NCBI GenBank assembly: GCA_026710825.1
Contig: JAPOQH010000116.1
Location: forward strand, 1 to 64,000
Reading direction: 5' to 3'
Length of the DNA: 64,000 nt
DNA from: Chloroflexota bacterium
Lineage (GTDB): Bacteria; Chloroflexota; Dehalococcoidia; Lucifugimonadales; UBA3495
A model generated the notes under the pieces. It made no database searches and was not told the origin of the DNA. It was given only the letters and a program-made list of their open reading frames with translations. The position numbers and the translations under genes were made by a program. Shown here in pieces: positions 18,202 to 52,047 of this stretch (position 1 is the stretch's first letter; each line of letters begins with the position of its first letter).

Positions 18202-18259
18202 TTACTTCCGACGGTGAATCCTGCATCTCACACATCACCTCCCATAAACAGGCGGAAGC

Positions 18260-19252
18260 ATGAGCACCAATTCAACAATCAAAGACAACCCCGTGGTTCT
18301 CCAGGTCGAAGGCCTGAAGACCTACTTCGAAACCCGATGGGGCACAGTCAAGGCGGTGGACGGGGTCAGCTTCGACCTGCGAAAAGGCGAAACCCTCGGC
18401 ATAGTGGGTGAATCGGGCTCCGGCAAATCCGTCACCATGCTGTCGGTAATGCGCTTGATCCCCAGTCCTCCCGGTCAAATCGTGGAGGGACGTGTCCTGC
18501 TTGAAGGCCAGGACCTCGTCGATCTATCCGAAAAGGAAATGGGCGCCATCCGCGGAAGCCAGATCGCGTTGATCATCCAGGACCCAATGACCTCGCTGAA
18601 CCCCGTGTTTTCCATCGGCAACCAGGTCGGTGAGGCCATCAAAATTCACCAGGACATCCCCAAGCGCACCGTTCTCCAGCAGGTGCTGGACGTGCTCAGG
18701 AAGGTCAACATCCCGGCCGCCGACACCAGGGTTCGGGACTACCCACACCAGATGAGCGGCGGCATGCGCCAGCGTGTGGTCGGGGCCATCGGCATCTCCT
18801 GCGAGCCCATGGTACTCATCGCCGACGAACCCACCACGTCTTTGGACGTTACCATTCAGGCCCAATACCTGAAATTGTTGAAGGAACTGCAGGAAGCGTC
18901 CGACATCGCCCTTATCTTCATCACCCACGACTTCGGCATCGTTGCCAAGATGTGCGATCGGGTGGCGGTGATGTACGCCGGCAAAATCGTCGAAATGGGC
19001 GACGTTCGCGATATATTCAACAACCCATCCCACCCCTATACCGAGGCTCTGCTCTCCTCGGTGCCGAAGCTCGAAGAGGACGTTGACCGTCTCTACTCCA
19101 TCGAGGGCCAACCACCCACGCTGCACGATCTGCCGCCCGGGTGCCCGTTCGCGCCACGATGCCAGTACGTTCGGGATAAGTGCTCCCAGTCGTATCCTCC
19201 CCAATTCAACCTGACCGACGGCCATTACGCCGCATGCTGGAGGCTGGAATGA
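18260..19252 (+). CDS. ABC importer ATPase, DppD/OppD type
   Basis: A 330-residue nucleotide-binding subunit. Walker [10 protein letters not shown]-loop [12 protein letters not shown], signature MSGGMRQRV, Walker [14 protein letters not shown] and switch H in FITHDFG are all present. The C-terminal oligopeptide-transporter domain holds the Cys motif typical of OppD ([16 protein letters not shown]), which in some members binds an Fe-S cluster. ATG 18260 follows GGCGGAAGC, a modest ribosome site. The stop overlaps the next start by four bases. Confidence 0.96.
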
Positions 19253-20259
19253 CCACTACCACTATGGATGCCAGGCCAACGGCGGATACTACCAACGAGG
19301 TTCTGCTCGAAGCGGAAGGACTCAAGAAATACTTCCCGGTCACCAAGGGTCTGTTGATTTCCAAAATAACCGGCCACATCAAAGCGGTAGATGGGGTCTC
19401 GTTCCAGATCCGAGCCGGGGAAACCTTGGGCATCGTTGGCGAGTCCGGATGCGGCAAGAGCACTACTGCCAAGATGTTGCTCCAGCTCGAAGAGCCCACC
19501 GAAGGCACCATTCGCTACCAGGGCAAGACGATCCACAATGCGACCTCCGAAGAACGCCGGGCGTATCGCAGTTCCGTCCAGGCGGTCTTCCAGGATCCTT
19601 GGAGCTCATTGAACCCCAGGATGCGCGTTCGCGACCTGATCGCCGAGCCCATGGTGATCAACCTCGATCTCAGCCGACGGGAAATGCAGGACCGCGTCGC
19701 CAAACTGCTCGAGGACGTCGGCCTGAGCAGCTATCACGCCAATCTGTACCCGCATGAGTTCAGCGGTGGCCAGCGTCAACGCCTTGCCATCGCTCGAGCG
19801 CTGTCGGTGGAACCACGCGTCATCGTGCTGGACGAACCCGTCTCAGCCTTGGACGTTTCCATCCGCGCCCAGATCATGAACCTGCTGAAAGACTTGCAGG
19901 AGGAATACAACGTCAGCTACCTCCTGATCGCTCACCACCTCGCCACTGTCCGGTACATGTGCGACTGGGTCGCCGTCATGTATCTGGGTCAGATCGTCGA
20001 GTTCGGCCCCACGCGGGAACTGTTCGAAAACGCGTCCCACCCCTACACCAAGGCCCTCATGAACGCGGCTTTGCCGTCGCACCCCGACATTGAGCAGGAA
20101 GAAATGATTCTGACCGGCGAGGTCCCGTCACCACTCAACCCACCGGAGGGTTGCCGTTTCCATCCTCGTTGCCCCTTCGTCATTGACCAGTGCCCGACCG
20201 CGATACCCCAGGTCACCGAATTGGCCCCCGGCCATATGGTGTCCTGCCACCTGTACTGA
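19249..20259 (+). CDS. ABC importer ATPase, DppF/OppF type
   Basis: A 336-residue second ATPase starting at ATG 19249, inside the ATGA overlap with the preceding gene, so translation is coupled. Walker A GESGCGKS, Q-loop AVFQDPWSSLNP, signature FSGGQRQRLAIARAL, Walker B VIVLDEPVSALDV and switch H in LLIAHHLA are intact. The C-terminal domain carries the OppF Cys motif (EGCRFHPRCPFVIDQC). A stem-loop follows. Since the second SBP/permease operon at 53516 lacks ATPases, this pair could also energise that transporter; that is inference. Confidence 0.96.
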   Translation: MTTTTMDARPTADTTNEVLLEAEGLKKYFPVTKGLLISKITGHIKAVDGVSFQIRAGETLGIVGESGCGKSTTAKMLLQLEEPTEGTIRYQGKTIHNATSEERRAYRSSVQAVFQDPWSSLNPRMRVRDLIAEPMVINLDLSRREMQDRVAKLLEDVGLSSYHANLYPHEFSGGQRQRLAIARALSVEPRVIVLDEPVSALDVSIRAQIMNLLKDLQEEYNVSYLLIAHHLATVRYMCDWVAVMYLGQIVEFGPTRELFENASHPYTKALMNAALPSHPDIEQEEMILTGEVPSPLNPPEGCRFHPRCPFVIDQCPTAIPQVTELAPGHMVSCHLY

Positions 20260-47063: not shown

Positions 47064-47531
47064 ATGGTCGCCGCAACCCAAAAACACTCGGGACACCATC
47101 ACCCGCGTCCCCGCTCCGCCGCCGTCGTCGATGACATCGTCGAGCGCTTGGTAGCCATGGGATATCGCGATACCGAACCCCGCCGCCTCGTGATCGGTGC
47201 TGTTGCTGCCCATGACCGCCCTTTTACCGCCGAGGACCTCTGCTCCGCTCTCCCGTGCGTGGGTCGGGCCACCGTGTTTCGCGGACTCCGCCTGCTCGTC
47301 GAAACCGACCAGGTTTGCCGGGTCCTCTTGGAGGACCGCGAACTTCGGTACCAACTTAGCCACCAGGGACACCACCACCATATGCTCTGTGCCGTTTGCG
47401 GAGCCTCCGCCGACCTGGCGGACTGCGATGTTGAGGAAACCCTGCGAGCCGCCGCGACCGCCGTCGGCTTCCAGATGAGTGGCCACTGGTTGGAGGTTTA
47501 CGGGCGCTGCGTCTCGTGCGCTGCGGCTTGA
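47064..47531 (+). CDS. Fur-family metalloregulator, probably Zur
   Basis: A 155-residue Fur-family repressor. The winged-helix part contains RRLVIGAVAAHDRPFTAEDL and RATVFRGLRLLVE. The dimerisation/metal part has GHHHHMLCAVCG and a C-terminal CVSC, the two CxxC pairs of the structural zinc site. An extra His-rich N-terminus (HSGHHHPRPR) is present. Its position directly upstream of a zinc-binding lipoprotein and permease, with Fur-type boxes in between, argues for zinc as co-repressor and a Zur role. Metal specificity cannot be proven from sequence. Confidence 0.88.
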   Translation: MVAATQKHSGHHHPRPRSAAVVDDIVERLVAMGYRDTEPRRLVIGAVAAHDRPFTAEDLCSALPCVGRATVFRGLRLLVETDQVCRVLLEDRELRYQLSHQGHHHHMLCAVCGASADLADCDVEETLRAAATAVGFQMSGHWLEVYGRCVSCAAA

Positions 47532-47590: not shown

Positions 47591-47605
47591 TGATACCCAA
47601 TGTCA
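47591..47605. promoter_or_regulatory. Fur/Zur-type 7-1-7 box 1
   Basis: TGATACC-C-AATGTCA, one mismatch from a perfect inverted repeat at the outer positions and similar to the Fur-family consensus TGATAATnATTATCA. It lies 126 bases upstream of the zinc-binding lipoprotein gene. Confidence 0.6.
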
Positions 47606-47649: not shown

Positions 47650-47664
47650 TGATACCAAATATCA
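47650..47664. promoter_or_regulatory. Fur/Zur-type 7-1-7 box 2
   Basis: TGATACC-A-AATATCA, with TGATA and TATCA fully symmetrical, 67 bases before the ATG at 47731. A third partial site, TGATACCCGGCGTTCA, starts at 47680. Spacing and position suit repression of the binding-protein gene under zinc sufficiency. Confidence 0.7.
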
Positions 47665-47730: not shown

Positions 47731-50088
47731 ATGAACCACGCCAAATCCCTTCGTATGTCCAGGATCACCCAGTGCGTATGCGCACGCCGCGGCCTGCTAA
47801 CGCTTGCCGCAATGGCATTGCTCATGTCTGCACTATTTTTGACTGCCTGCGGCGGCGACGAACCTGCGTTCCCTCCCGCTGATTCGACCGCCGCCGCAGG
47901 TTCAGATACGTCGCCGAGTCCAGGCCCAGCCTCCGGGTCCTCGGATCCTGCACCGGCCCAAGCCACTCCACAGTCCTCGAGTTCTTCGTCGTCTGCGAGC
48001 GCCGCAGAGCCAGAGCCCGATGAGCCCATCAAAGCGGTTGCCAGCAATGCCGTGTTGGCCGATTTGGTCTCCAACGTGGGCGGCGACCGCGTGTCCGTCA
48101 ATGTCCTGGTGCCCGCTGGCGCTGACGCTCATACCTGGAGCAGCACCCCCCAGGACAGCGTTCGAATTGCCAACGCCAGCCTCATTGTCAGCAATGGCGC
48201 GGGGTTGTCTGCCCAGGTCGACGCCCTGATCGACAACGCCGCGTCCGCAGACGCATTCCGCGTAGTCGCCTCAGACGGCCTCGAACCCCAGGAACTGGTG
48301 GAATTGCCATTCCCCGAGGAGGACCACAACGGGGAACAAGACCACATGGCGGAAGCTGAGCATCACGAAGAAGTCGCTGGTCGGCTCCTGGTCGGCGACG
48401 GCGAGGGACCGGGTCTATCCGTCATCGATCTGGAATCCGGCGACGTACACCAGAACGAGTTCGACCTCGGCTCTCGCGCCGGCCGGATTTACTCCACCGC
48501 ATCCGGCCGCTTCGCCATCGCCGTTTCCTCCGACGCCAACGCTGTCCATCTATTCGACGGGGGCATATACCTCGAGGAGCATGGCGACCACTTTGACCTG
48601 GTCGAAACCGACGTCCATCGGCTCGATGCAAACTTGACCGGCGACCGTCCGGTCCACCTGTACGTTGGCGGCGAGTGGGCGACTGTTTTCTACGATGATT
48701 CCGGCGACATCGCGCTGATCAACGAGCATGAATTGGAACACGAAGGCGATGCTTGGGTTCCCGTGATGATGAACGCCGGCGCTCAACACGGCGCGGCAGT
48801 TCCTCTGGAAGGTGACCTGTTTGCCGTCTCTCTCCAGCACCCTGATTACCTTCAAAATCCGGAAGACTACGGACGGCCCATCGGCGCGGAAATCCGAAAC
48901 CTGGACGGACAGGTGCTGCATCGGGCTGAGGGTTGCCCCGACCTCCACGGCGATGCCGGAAACGGTCACGCGGCGGCCTTTGGTTGCACCGGAGGCGTCC
49001 TCGTCGTCGAAGCCCACGACGGCGATTACGACCACGCATTCATACCGGCGCCACCCGGCTCCCCCGACGACTTCCGCCTGACCTCCGTTTTTGGCTATGA
49101 CGGACTCGACCATTTCTTCGCGTTGGGCTCTGCCGTCGGCCTCTATCTGGTAGAACCGGAATCCGGTGAAATGGAGCAGTTCATCCCTGCTACGGACTCC
49201 CTGAGGCCAATTCAGGTGGCATTTAGTTACGATGGCGAGTTGCTGTTGGTCCTGATGTCCGACGGAGAGCTGCGTTCGTATGACGCGCATGACGGAGATC
49301 TCCTGGAATCCGCGTCTGGATTCTTGTCAGCCGACCTGGACCCCGGATTCTGGGCCCGGCCTCATATCGCCACTGCTCCCGGCCACATCTATATCACCGA
49401 CTCCGCGGCCGGCGAAGTTCTTGCGTTGGATGCCGATCACCTGGAGGTGGTCGACCACTGGGACGTGGATGGCAAGCCCACCAAAATCGCGTTCGTCGGC
49501 ATCCTGGGAGACGGAGATCACCCCGAGGAAGGCCACGACGACCACGACAGCGAAAGCGACGACCAAGGACACGACCATGGTGAGGGTGATCCGCACTTCT
49601 GGCTCAACCCCCGCATGGTTGTCCATTATGTCAATCGGATCGCCAACGGCCTCGTCGCCGCAGATCCTGACAATGCCGGTGTGTACCTCGACAACGCCGC
49701 CGCTTACATCGAAAAGTTGGAGGCACTGGACGCGTACATTGCCGACTCCCTTGCCGGCATCCCCCACGATCGGCGTGTGATAGTCACGTTCCACGATGCG
49801 TTCGGATACTTTGGTAGCCGCTACGACTTCGAGGTCATGGCTTTCGTCGGCTCCCACGCCGGTGAAGTTTCTCCGGACGACATATCCAGGGTGATAGACT
49901 TGGTCGATGACCAGGGTTTGCAGGGGGTTTTCGCCGAACCCCAGTTTTCCGCCGACGCATTGGAACAGGTCGCCCGGGACTCCGGCATCGGTATCGGAAT
50001 CCTGCGCTCTCTGCCCGACGCCACCCACGGCGACTACATCAGCATGATGCGGGCAAACGCCGACGCCCTGGCCGGCTTGCTCAACTGA
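47731..50088 (+). CDS. Zinc-binding lipoprotein (ZnuA/AztC type) with an inserted AztD-like beta-propeller
   Basis: A 785-residue protein starting at ATG 47731 with AGGAG upstream. A lipoprotein signal ends in LTAC (37-40), followed by a Ser/Pro linker to about 97. ZnuA lobe 1 (about 99-195) has the ligand H134 in GADAHTW. Residues 197-212 are His/Glu-rich. A complete propeller follows at about 217-590 (GRLLVGDGEGPGLSVIDL, EEHGDHFDL, the Cys pair C402/C419 around PDLHGDAGNGHAA, ending KIAFVG), resembling the periplasmic zinc chaperone AztD. A second His/Asp loop (596-616) leads into ZnuA lobe 2, with H622 (DPHFWLNP) and H688 (TFHDAFGYF). The propeller thus sits exactly where ZnuA proteins carry their flexible His loop. 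Ordinary ZnuA proteins are about 300 residues. Confidence 0.92.
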   Translation: MNHAKSLRMSRITQCVCARRGLLTLAAMALLMSALFLTACGGDEPAFPPADSTAAAGSDTSPSPGPASGSSDPAPAQATPQSSSSSSSASAAEPEPDEPIKAVASNAVLADLVSNVGGDRVSVNVLVPAGADAHTWSSTPQDSVRIANASLIVSNGAGLSAQVDALIDNAASADAFRVVASDGLEPQELVELPFPEEDHNGEQDHMAEAEHHEEVAGRLLVGDGEGPGLSVIDLESGDVHQNEFDLGSRAGRIYSTASGRFAIAVSSDANAVHLFDGGIYLEEHGDHFDLVETDVHRLDANLTGDRPVHLYVGGEWATVFYDDSGDIALINEHELEHEGDAWVPVMMNAGAQHGAAVPLEGDLFAVSLQHPDYLQNPEDYGRPIGAEIRNLDGQVLHRAEGCPDLHGDAGNGHAAAFGCTGGVLVVEAHDGDYDHAFIPAPPGSPDDFRLTSVFGYDGLDHFFALGSAVGLYLVEPESGEMEQFIPATDSLRPIQVAFSYDGELLLVLMSDGELRSYDAHDGDLLESASGFLSADLDPGFWARPHIATAPGHIYITDSAAGEVLALDADHLEVVDHWDVDGKPTKIAFVGILGDGDHPEEGHDDHDSESDDQGHDHGEGDPHFWLNPRMVVHYVNRIANGLVAADPDNAGVYLDNAAAYIEKLEALDAYIADSLAGIPHDRRVIVTFHDAFGYFGSRYDFEVMAFVGSHAGEVSPDDISRVIDLVDDQGLQGVFAEPQFSADALEQVARDSGIGIGILRSLPDATHGDYISMMRANADALAGLLN

Positions 50089-50137: not shown

Positions 50138-50173
50138 GTGCCTGGTCAACCGTCAGTAACCAATGTAACTATC

Positions 50174-51043
50174 ATGATCGATTTGATCGTAGAACCCATG
50201 CAGTACGGGTTTATGCAGCGAGCGTTGCTGGTGTCCGCCCTCGCAGCCACCGCCTGTGGAGTCGTCGGCACGTTTGTCGTGTTGCGCGGGATGGCCTTCA
50301 TGGGCGACGCCATCGCCCATTCCGCGCTTACCGGCATGGCCATTGCATTCCTGGTTGGCGTCAACGTGACCGTGGGTGCTCTGGTGTGGGCGGTGCCGGC
50401 ATCCCTGGGCATCTCGTTCGTGTCCCGCCGGACCGGCATCCGGCTGGACGCGGTTATCGGGGTCCTCTTCGCCGGCGGGTTCGCGTTGGGAGTAATATTG
50501 ATCAACGTCTCCCCAAATTACGCCGGCGATCTGCTGGGCATCCTGTTCGGCAACGTCCTGGGAGCCTCATGGCTCGACGTGCTGTCGGTCGGTTGCCTCG
50601 CGGGCGGGGGGATAATCGTGGTCGGCCTGCTTTTCCAAGAGGTGGTCTTCATGACCTACGACGCCTCGGTCGCGGAAGCGTCCGGGATCCCCGTACGGTT
50701 CTTGGAATATCTGCTCCCGCTCCTGGTGGCCCTGACCACGGTGGCCTCGCTGCAAACTGTCGGCAACGTCATGGTCATGTCGCTATTGGTGGTTCCAGCC
50801 GTCACCGGGAGCATGTTGGCTCGCCGGTTGGCCAGCATGATGCTGGCTACGGTTGGAGTTGCCCTCACCGCCATCGTAATCGGCCTGTACCTTTCATTCC
50901 ACGCCAACCTCCCCACCGGTCCAGCCATCGTCGTCGTATCGGTGACGCAATTGCTCGTGGTGGTTGTGGTCTCTCCGCGACGTTGGTCCCTGTTGGCACG
51001 GTGGCGTCGCCGCACCGGCAGCTCCGAACCCGCCGCCGACTGA
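50174..51043 (+). CDS. Zinc/manganese ABC permease, ZnuB/AztB (ABC-3) family
   Basis: A 289-residue inner-membrane protein with about eight or nine hydrophobic helices. The ABC-3 signature is clear: FVVLRGMAFMGDAIAHSALTG near the N-terminus, cited by its ends, and the coupling region with VTYDASVAEASG-like sequence (MTYDASVAEASGIPV). ATG 50174 is chosen as the first Met before the first helix; a ribosome site is weak. The gene follows the terminator at 50108 and is eight bases before the DUF3179 gene. No ATPase gene of the transporter is nearby. Confidence 0.92.
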   Translation: MIDLIVEPMQYGFMQRALLVSALAATACGVVGTFVVLRGMAFMGDAIAHSALTGMAIAFLVGVNVTVGALVWAVPASLGISFVSRRTGIRLDAVIGVLFAGGFALGVILINVSPNYAGDLLGILFGNVLGASWLDVLSVGCLAGGGIIVVGLLFQEVVFMTYDASVAEASGIPVRFLEYLLPLLVALTTVASLQTVGNVMVMSLLVVPAVTGSMLARRLASMMLATVGVALTAIVIGLYLSFHANLPTGPAIVVVSVTQLLVVVVVSPRRWSLLARWRRRTGSSEPAAD

Positions 51044-51051
51044 ACCGCGAC

Positions 51052-52047
51052 ATGGCAACTGGCTGCGACCGCAAATCCCGGTACCCAACCCGGTGCCGCC
51101 ACCGGAGCCACCTACGCTTGGCGATCGGCCTGACCGCAATTTGCTATTTCCCGATCGTTCTTCTAGCCTGCGCTCCAAATCCGCCCATGCCGGATCCGCA
51201 TTCTGGACAATTCATCGGCAGCTACGAAGAGGTCATTGAGCTACCTGGACCTGTCGCAGCAGGTTTTTCGGACTCCGAATTCGACCAGTTGCTGCGCCCT
51301 GACGACATTCCCCCAGTCTATTCGCCAATGTTCGTACCCGCCTCCGAAGCCAACCTGCCCGACGACGAATTGGTGATCGGACTGGCCATCGGAGACGACA
51401 CCCGCACCTATCCGGCCGGCATCCTGTTCGCCAGGGAGATGGTCAATGACGTGGTGGGGGGCGTGCCCGTCCTGGTCAGTTGGTGTCCCAGGTGCTACGC
51501 AGCGCTGGTGCATGACCGGCGCGCCGACGGCAGCGTTTCAGTTTTTGGCAATCAGGGAGCGCTATATAAAGGAGCGATGACCTGGTTCGACCACGAGACC
51601 GGCAGCGTATGGTCCCAGCCGTTGGGAGCAGCATTGGCCGGACCCAGGGCCGGTGCCACGCTGTCATTGATCCCGTCGCAACTTACCACCTGGAGCGACT
51701 GGTCCGCGTCTCATCCCCAAACCAGGGTCTTGGTCGTCGACGAACCGTCCCAGCCGTTTCGTGGACGCCGACCCGGCCCAGACCATGTGGTCGGCGTCGT
51801 CATCGGAGATACGGCAGTCGCACTACCTTACGACCAAATTCTGCCCACCATGCCACATGAGATCAAAGTAGGGGACATTAGTGTCACGGTGTGGCGCGAC
51901 GCCCATTCCGGAGCTATACAAGCCAAGCAACTGCACGAATCGGGCAACCAACGCCGGGAAATCCCAGTGCTGATCGCCTACCGGTCTGCCTGGCTCAAAT
52001 TCCATCCGGATAGCCTGATCGGTCCAACCCGAGAGCCCGGTCGGTGA
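51052..52047 (+). CDS. DUF3179 lipoprotein
   Basis: A 331-residue protein starting at ATG 51052, eight bases after the permease stop. The signal has a hydrophobic core and lipobox LLAC (about 38-41). The DUF3179 domain shows PVLVSWCPRCYAALVHDRR with a CxxC, FGNQGALYKGAMTWFDHETGSVW and the conserved TTWSDWSASHP. The family is widespread and of unknown function. Its tight linkage to a zinc permease and its CxxC suggest a role in metal handling at the cell surface, which is inference. A frame continuing further upstream is a shadow of the permease gene. Confidence 0.87.
   Translation: MATGCDRKSRYPTRCRHRSHLRLAIGLTAICYFPIVLLACAPNPPMPDPHSGQFIGSYEEVIELPGPVAAGFSDSEFDQLLRPDDIPPVYSPMFVPASEANLPDDELVIGLAIGDDTRTYPAGILFAREMVNDVVGGVPVLVSWCPRCYAALVHDRRADGSVSVFGNQGALYKGAMTWFDHETGSVWSQPLGAALAGPRAGATLSLIPSQLTTWSDWSASHPQTRVLVVDEPSQPFRGRRPGPDHVVGVVIGDTAVALPYDQILPTMPHEIKVGDISVTVWRDAHSGAIQAKQLHESGNQRREIPVLIAYRSAWLKFHPDSLIGPTREPGR

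Follow-up and report, generated by a model that had tools for sequence, protein, structure and literature searches.

This analysis concerns a stretch of 64,000 nucleotides (the window; positions 1 to 64,000 of contig JAPOQH010000116.1, from a Chloroflexota bacterium) and, within it, one gene in which a zinc chaperone is predicted to be built into the binding protein that it serves. An open reading frame (ORF) is open exactly from 47731 to 50088 on the + strand, and its product of 785 amino acids reads as lobe 1 of an AztC/ZnuA-type solute-binding protein (SBP), a linker, a complete AztD propeller, a second linker, and SBP lobe 2. This fused architecture is almost certainly real. The main job of the protein is, in our judgment, probably the direct intramolecular transfer of zinc from AztD site 2. 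The features of the gene are as follows.

47731..50088, + strand: fused zinc-binding lipoprotein, AztC/ZnuA-type SBP with AztD propeller inserted, 785 amino acids (profiles, PDB sequence search, AlphaFold2, and Foldseek)
47731..47850, + strand: predicted signal peptide and lipobox LTAC, residues 1-40 (sequence; C40 in 54/58 fused proteins)
48022..48297, + strand: SBP lobe 1, residues 98-189, with putative metal ligand H134 (AztC/PDB matches and AlphaFold2)
48298..48378, + strand: N-linker, residues 190-216, His/Glu-rich and predicted to be disordered (predicted local distance difference test score [pLDDT] <50 at 195-212)
48379..49500, + strand: AztD-type beta-propeller, residues 217-590 (profile, alignment, AlphaFold2, and Foldseek)
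48580..48597, + strand: AztD site 2 motif HGDHFD (284-289), with H284, H287, and D289 (aligned to PDB AztD chains)
48655..48948, + strand: AztD site 1 ligands H309, H353, and H406 (aligned to AztD chains)
48934..48987, + strand: Cys402 and Cys419, predicted equivalent of the AztD disulfide (spacing as in PdAztD)
49501..49587, + strand: C-linker, residues 591-619, His/Asp-rich, with H597 and the GHDHG motif (H614 and H616)
49588..50082, + strand: SBP lobe 2, residues 620-784, with H622, H688, and E736 (each in 58/58)

The original prediction had the order lobe 1, His/Glu linker, propeller at 217-590, His/Asp linker, and lobe 2, and on this order the profiles, PDB search, AlphaFold2, and Foldseek agree. 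In hidden Markov model searches with AztD and ZnuA profiles, ZnuA/AztC matched in two parts with a full AztD between them. Pfam ZnuA matched the ORF in two stretches (5.9e-74 overall), as did NCBIfam AztC (NF040870; 9.1e-59, 199.2 bits, below the cut-off of 350). NCBIfam AztD (NF038015) covered residues 222-589 with profile positions 2-354 of 356 (1.2e-38), in the gap between the SBP stretches; its 132.8 bits are below the cut-off of 400, and four propeller-only homologues from other phyla likewise fall under it (98-244 bits). When the PDB was searched by sequence, the middle of the protein matched AztD (6cmk, 1.3e-31, residues 213-612; 6ck1, 4.4e-31), and its ends matched AztC chain 5w56 at residues 98-188 and 616-784 as well as other SBPs. 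A generic WD40/PQQ propeller was ruled out, such entries scoring just 0.0024 to 0.37 in the Pfam, NCBIfam, and PDB searches.

Structures were predicted with AlphaFold2 for the full-length protein from a 27-row alignment (run A) and for residues 96-785 from a 58-row alignment (run B); the two alignment sets share organisms. Run A gave a pLDDT of 80.6 and a predicted template-modelling score (pTM) of 0.54, and run B gave 87.5 and 0.59. Both lobes and the propeller were predicted to be well folded (propeller 217-590, blocks mostly >90 pLDDT), and the linkers at 195-212 and 595-619 to be disordered. In the Foldseek comparison, ranks 1-9 were AztD crystal structures (TMt 0.82-0.85) and rank 10 was holo AztC, aligned over 693-695 columns and therefore spanning the insert (TMt 0.82-0.84). 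For the first model, holo AztC was the sole SBP among the matches listed that aligned across the insert; for the second, six further chains did so (5kzj A and B, 5w56_A, 8svc, 5z2j, and 5z2k). A ZnuA/AztC bilobe split by an AztD-like propeller with metal-site residues in place had been anticipated and was obtained; the seven blades expected at the same time do not match the AztD paper, which describes eight (passage in PMC6689063). Because AlphaFold2 places it between two disordered linkers, the propeller is an insertion. A C-terminal tail was ruled out, since AlphaFold2 and Foldseek place the propeller between the SBP lobes and the ORF ends with lobe 2.

The insertion point can be located against AztC. 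Position 91 of the apo-AztC chain 5w56 pairs with query residue 188 and the alignment resumes at 109, paired with 616, so that PdAztC chain positions 92-108 are replaced by query residues 189-615 in the PDB sequence alignment. In the numbering of the AztC paper the replaced stretch would be about 115-131, if the DPH His at chain position 115 corresponds to His138, as we assign it; the D-loop is given there as 117-133 (PMC7463823, passage on the loop). Judged by this alignment, the insert sits at the AztC D-loop to within a few residues, which bears out the idea that the donor occupies the place of its client's flexible His loop. According to the same source, transfer from AztD requires the D-loop, including every one of its three His, and a docking model has the D-loop entering the AztD pore. 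Passages of PMC6689063 place AztD site 2 on an extension built from the N- and C-terminal strands plus a hairpin, report that zinc passes to AztC from site 2 alone, and discuss AztD-AztC association as the rate-limiting step. Since the propeller is inserted via its termini and site 2 lies near these strands, the SBP would be tethered beside site 2. The SBP region 705-714, at the position of the AztC Z-loop, aligns without clear identity. The position of the insert is occupied by very long loops in some unfused SBPs, one of which (L064:4709-6304) has a 124-amino-acid His/Glu-rich stretch and another (L068:5655-7019) a 109-amino-acid repetitive His/Asp/Glu loop.

Conservation was counted over 58 fused proteins, the window protein included. 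The HGDH motif and Cys pair named in the original prediction are present, as HGDHFD at 284-289 and Cys 402/419. Site 2 is kept (H284 in 58/58, H287 in 57/58, and D289 in 58/58), as is site 1 with its three pore His (H309 in 57/58, H353 in 56/58, and H406 in 55/58). C402 and C419 each occur in 58/58, with the spacing C-x3-H-x12-C of PdAztD C214/H218/C231. The full set of eight propeller residues, six ligands plus the Cys pair, is intact in 55/58; the exceptions are L107 and L113, changed at site-1 His only, and L110, changed at all three site-1 His and carrying H287D. On the SBP side, H134, H622, H688, and E736 are each found in 58/58, and H134 presumably matches the first His ligand of AztC in a three-His SBP site. 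The tether residues H614 and H616 are equally invariant (58/58 each), and the N-linker has at least one His in 58/58 and at least two in 51/58. Both linkers are rich in His, Asp, and Glu (median fractions 0.56 and 0.62). Among the AztC metal ligands, His138 and His204 are named in the cited part of PMC7463823. Against three relatives, dN/dS (nonsynonymous to synonymous substitution rates) was 0.05-0.15 for lobes plus propeller, a rough value with dS at about 1 or more. The folded parts, lobes and propeller, are under purifying selection.

For the distribution of the fusion, species-genome contigs were searched with two propeller motifs taken from a Chloroflexota alignment, and the best 80 of 82 relatives gave 75 loci. 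In 57 of these 75, lobe 1, propeller, and lobe 2 lie in one ORF, a ratio that is not a prevalence because the choice of motifs under-sampled other phyla. All 57 fused loci are in records named Dehalococcoidia, SAR202, Chloroflexi, or Chloroflexota. Of the remaining 18, some have split frames or reach a contig end (L090, L098, and L150), others carry propellers without SBP lobes (L100, L106, L138, L143, L144, and L145; of these, L106 is split, and L138 and L145 start where a contig ends), and nine belong to Poribacteria, Pseudomonadota, and Actinomycetota. In this propeller-motif scan, fusion to SBP lobes was found in 0/10 loci named to non-Chloroflexota phyla (L100 and these nine). A separate SBP ORF lies near the propeller in 4/5 Poribacteria loci, and a distant one at the L100 locus. 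In a 60-genome set that includes the source genome, full-length fused matches were found in 18 other genomes; in G002, a member of the same genus, the SBP is unfused and the order zur-SBP-permease is unchanged. AztD is rare in a 400-genome sample of the phylum, where 13 match, 6 of them (the source genome included) at <=1.5e-15 and the rest at 1e-4 to 9e-4. In the source genome (92% complete), no second AztD was found, and the search for SBPs gave one other locus. The closest relatives suggest that the window belongs to a Dehalococcoidia metagenome-assembled genome.

Other propeller architectures were seen in the same scan. A 925-amino-acid Binatia protein (L100:5215-7989, + strand), whose propeller shares 72% identity with the L045 propeller and is flanked by His-rich stretches, has no SBP lobes. 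Also without SBP lobes are a 991-amino-acid protein with two AztD propellers (L143:4237-7209) and two AztD propeller genes in tandem (L144:4085-7182). In Poribacteria, an AztD-like protein of 784 amino acids (L151:5824-8175) has a C terminus resembling FlgD_ig or a secretion tail, tested in L151.

An assembly artefact or chance joining was ruled out by the recurrence in 57/75 loci and the purifying selection on the folded parts. The fused loci include contigs of 3.4-4.4 Mb (OX638345.1, OX638353.1, OY282456.1, and OY282565.1). A viral or phage origin was set aside, no relative being found in a scan of viral contigs. A plasmid-borne fused form was likewise rejected: 1480 of 72,556 plasmid records match, none with a single place covering 80% of the query, and the top plasmid match consists of two separate genes.

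The propellers and the SBP lobes have separate histories, and their trees conflict. Compared with 11 proteins on another scaffold, the window's propeller is 62-75% identical and its lobes are 29-39% identical. When the 58 fused proteins were clustered (lobes at 50% identity, propellers at 54%), four scaffolds and four propeller types gave seven combinations, holding 18, 14 (the window's), 13, 4, 3, 3, and 3 proteins. The count of propeller types varies with the threshold: clustering at 46-50% yields two, in five combinations of 18, 14, 13, 10, and 3 proteins. The four scaffolds with fused members are 50% clusters whose sizes do not change at 46% and hardly change at 54%, and unfused members exist in scaffolds 1, 2, and 5. 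Trees were built from 72 lobe pairs and 75 propellers, and constraints were compared by the approximately unbiased (AU) test. Forcing together the 32 carriers of propeller type 1 made the lobe tree 451 log units worse (AU p 1.1e-55), and forcing together all 58 fused SBPs made it 668 log units worse (p 1.8e-30). In the propeller tree, joining the 28 scaffold-1 propellers cost 696 log units (AU p 4.9e-46). The tree program flagged long rows (the SBPs of L100, L075, and Poribacteria, and stand-alone propellers), none of them in the window's group.

The propeller tree nests the window's group within the scaffold-1 group on starred branches; as to the direction of exchange between scaffolds, the AU test did not reject the contrary topology (p 0.129). 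Neither propeller loss by the unfused L061 of the same genus (p 0.369, undecided) nor a single clade of scaffold-3 propellers (p 0.338, not rejected) was settled by the same test. At the L146 locus, two SBP genes lie in tandem with 202/257 identical lobe residues, one with the propeller and one without. The loop of the unfused copy is a plain His loop of 24-nucleotide repeats, and the same kind of repeats flank the propeller on both sides in its partner. This pair suggests recombination at His-repeat DNA. The propeller cassette may have passed from one SBP scaffold to another through recombination within the coding sequence of the His loop or beside it. More broadly, there is an even chance, in our view, that the AztD propeller and its His-rich flanks form a movable zinc-handling cassette that enters His-repeat loops, with repetitive His-loop DNA as the recombination site. 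Such a cassette would have been exchanged among the four SBP scaffolds, would occur in other proteins as well (the Binatia protein and the double-propeller lipoprotein), and would make zinc-binding proteins self-loading.

The neighbouring genes point to zinc import. The features around the fused gene are as follows.

47064..47531, + strand: Fur-family regulator, probably Zur (Pfam FUR, 4.5e-18)
47591..47605: Zur-box-like palindrome TGATACCCAATGTCA, 2 mismatches to TGATACnnnGTATCA
47650..47664: Zur-box-like palindrome TGATACCAAATATCA, 1 mismatch to TGATACnnnGTATCA
50138..51043, + strand: AztB-like ATP-binding cassette (ABC) ABC-3 permease (Pfam ABC-3, 1.6e-65; AztB, 8.2e-61)

Judged from its context, the regulator is probably Zur rather than Fur or PerR; its gene stays adjacent across the genus and in unfused operons. 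The permease scores 205.9 bits with the AztB profile (cut-off 280). The consensus TGATACnnnGTATCA comes from visual inspection of 14 zur promoter sequences from the genus. Sites with <=2 mismatches, counted from -200 to +60 relative to the fused gene, were found in 12/14 scaffold-2, 17/28 scaffold-1, and 1/3 scaffold-5 genes. As controls at the 58 fused genes, the reversed consensus gave 0/58 and shuffles 0.30 in all. The Zur-box-like reading rests on this clustering upstream of fused genes. Across the window itself the palindrome was not enriched (16 matches with <=3 mismatches versus 11.7 expected), and genome-wide there were 64 places versus 26 for the control. The site upstream of the window's zur gene carries 3 mismatches, a script detected no inverted repeats with arms of 7-10 in the window's two upstream stretches, and elsewhere in the genome the three further places with 1 mismatch do not lie beside zinc genes (by eye).

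Within 4 kb of the 57 fused loci (some contigs end sooner), zur was found at 24, the permease at 30, and a cognate ATPase, defined as >=45% identical to the L045 ATPase, at 19; any of the three was found at 40/57. In the window, no ABC-ATPase signature was found outside 18248-20256, about 27 kb off. The best candidate lies elsewhere in the genome (C92) and shares 52% identity with an ATPase from an unfused operon. It adjoins glyoxalase-like and other genes, with no SBP or permease beside it (by eye). The genes around it also flank unfused zur-SBP loci, one of which has an ATPase and a permease (by eye), and a glyoxalase domain was confirmed both at C92 and at the unfused locus. We infer that the C92 ATPase may be the importer ATPase left at the old locus. 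Among further neighbours, cobW occurs near 4/57 fused loci (L046:4235-5659, - strand, is a CobW-type gene beside the fused gene). In some genomes of the same genus, Cu/Zn superoxide dismutase genes adjoin the fused gene, at L037:5060-5656 (- strand) and L042:8773-9351 (+ strand), with Pfam Sod_Cu at about 1e-28; sodC is near 3/13 scaffold-2 loci and 3/57 fused loci overall within 4 kb. In the window, a DUF3179-like protein (51044-52047, + strand) seems to come next after the permease, and the relatives L044 and L071 have DUF3179 there.

In the mechanism that we propose, the protein would be a surface lipoprotein, the SBP of a Zur-type zinc ABC importer, with the AztD chaperone built into its D-loop. 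The propeller would take up zinc at site 2, close to its N- and C-terminal strands, which would be joined to the SBP through two His-rich tethers. The tether His (GHDHG beside the SBP ligand H622) would replace those of the D-loop and bring zinc to the three-His SBP site H134, H622, and H688. Import would then proceed by the operon permease and an ATPase encoded elsewhere. Tethering would swap the slow AztD-AztC encounter for an intramolecular step.

Several observations weigh against this mechanism or the history that goes with it. The candidate fourth site-2 ligand H597 is kept in just 38/58; some His lies inside 591-602 in 58/58, and the C-terminal His ligand of AztD site 2 is itself 68.1% conserved (figure given in PMC6689063). 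The Asp279-like ligand of the published AztC model was found in 2/58 by motif search, with G in 22 and the motif absent in 34; none was seen in the window protein, and unfused relatives are also variable there (by eye). His pairs of the GHDHG kind are present in some unfused relatives (by eye), hence they are not specific to the fusion. The pTM values are too low to predict how propeller and SBP are arranged and leave the placement of the propeller relative to the cleft undefined. The Foldseek alignment of holo AztC over both lobes has a root-mean-square deviation of 7.7-7.9 Å, and most remaining SBP matches listed cover a single lobe. In scaffold 3, the genes are without zur and without the palindrome (0/13), and the permease, present in 5/13 loci, is on the opposite strand; nor was a Zur-box-like site found upstream of the candidate ATPase. 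The DNA words shared by the two linkers are longer than in every one of 30 shuffles in just 13/58 rows, which do not include the window's gene; its 20-nucleotide pair of 85% identity at 48312 and 49521 may be chance. For the related AdcA, the SBP domain alone sufficed for import in one study (described in PMC7858048).

A zinc reservoir is an unlikely alternative. The propeller and the His/Asp/Glu linkers would buffer surface zinc, which would dissociate and be rebound by the SBP or other proteins without direct ligand exchange. Such buffering would suit linkers in which over half of the residues are His, Asp, or Glu, the long His-rich loops without a propeller in unfused relatives (109 amino acids in L068 and 124 in L064), and the tandem double propeller without SBP lobes in L143. 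Against it stand the retention of site 2 in particular (L107, L110, and L113 are changed at site-1 His, and L107 and L113 keep all three site-2 ligands) and the position of the insert at the D-loop. An outward delivery hub, in which the propeller hands zinc to other extracytoplasmic proteins such as a neighbouring Cu/Zn superoxide dismutase, is considerably less probable still. Sod_Cu proteins do adjoin the fused gene in L037 and L042, with sodC near 3/13 scaffold-2 loci, but 54/57 loci are without sodC within 4 kb (BLAST search) and import genes are much commoner in the gene context. Beta-propellers often serve as binding platforms and L110 is substituted at one site-2 and all three site-1 His, yet a relic or mere scaffold or adhesion domain that no longer handles metal is highly improbable when the six ligands and the Cys pair are intact in 55/58 and the domain is under purifying selection.

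If direct transfer from site 2 is indeed the main job, zinc handover could occur within one molecule, without a separate partner as in relatives. The two-protein AztD-AztC complex is described as transient and known from docking alone in the passages cited from PMC6689063 and PMC7463823. A natural single-chain form fixes stoichiometry and proximity and could open the transfer state to crystallography, cryo-electron microscopy, and single-turnover kinetics. The protein also exemplifies the insertion of a domain at the loop thought to dock it, with related domains on different scaffolds and a tandem pair with and without the propeller. It bears on zinc acquisition in little-studied uncultured Chloroflexota, with SAR202 among the record names. 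No such fusion was described in the titles or abstract openings searched, subscription papers and database annotations being outside this search; "fused" occurs once in PMC6689063, for AdcA, and "fused" and "fusion" are absent from PMC7463823.

Known systems offer several points of comparison. The TIGR03772 SBP of anchored-repeat ABC transporters (a profile match) is similar in that lobe 2 starts only from about profile position 311 of 486, with much extra sequence before it, which we take to be an inserted repeat domain and not a propeller. ZnuA and other cluster A-I SBPs share the bilobed fold and a His-rich loop in the same place, whereas here the loop holds an entire propeller domain. AdcA of streptococci (ZnuA plus ZinT) likewise unites a zinc SBP with an accessory zinc protein as a single surface lipoprotein whose interface carries a His-rich loop (passages in PMC7858048 and PMC6689063). 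However, its accessory domain is a C-terminal ZinT, whereas the propeller here is inserted in the His loop and the protein ends with lobe 2. A close counterpart described in the cited parts of PMC6689063 and PMC7463823 is AztABCD of Paracoccus denitrificans, which shares both folds, sites 1 and 2, the Cys pair, the SBP His, a Fur-family regulator, and an AztB-like permease. It differs in that AztC and AztD are two proteins there, and in that here the likely ATPase lies outside the operon and the Asp279-like ligand is mostly absent. AztD proper is a separate secreted polypeptide, whereas here the propeller, inserted at the AztC D-loop, is part of the SBP chain.

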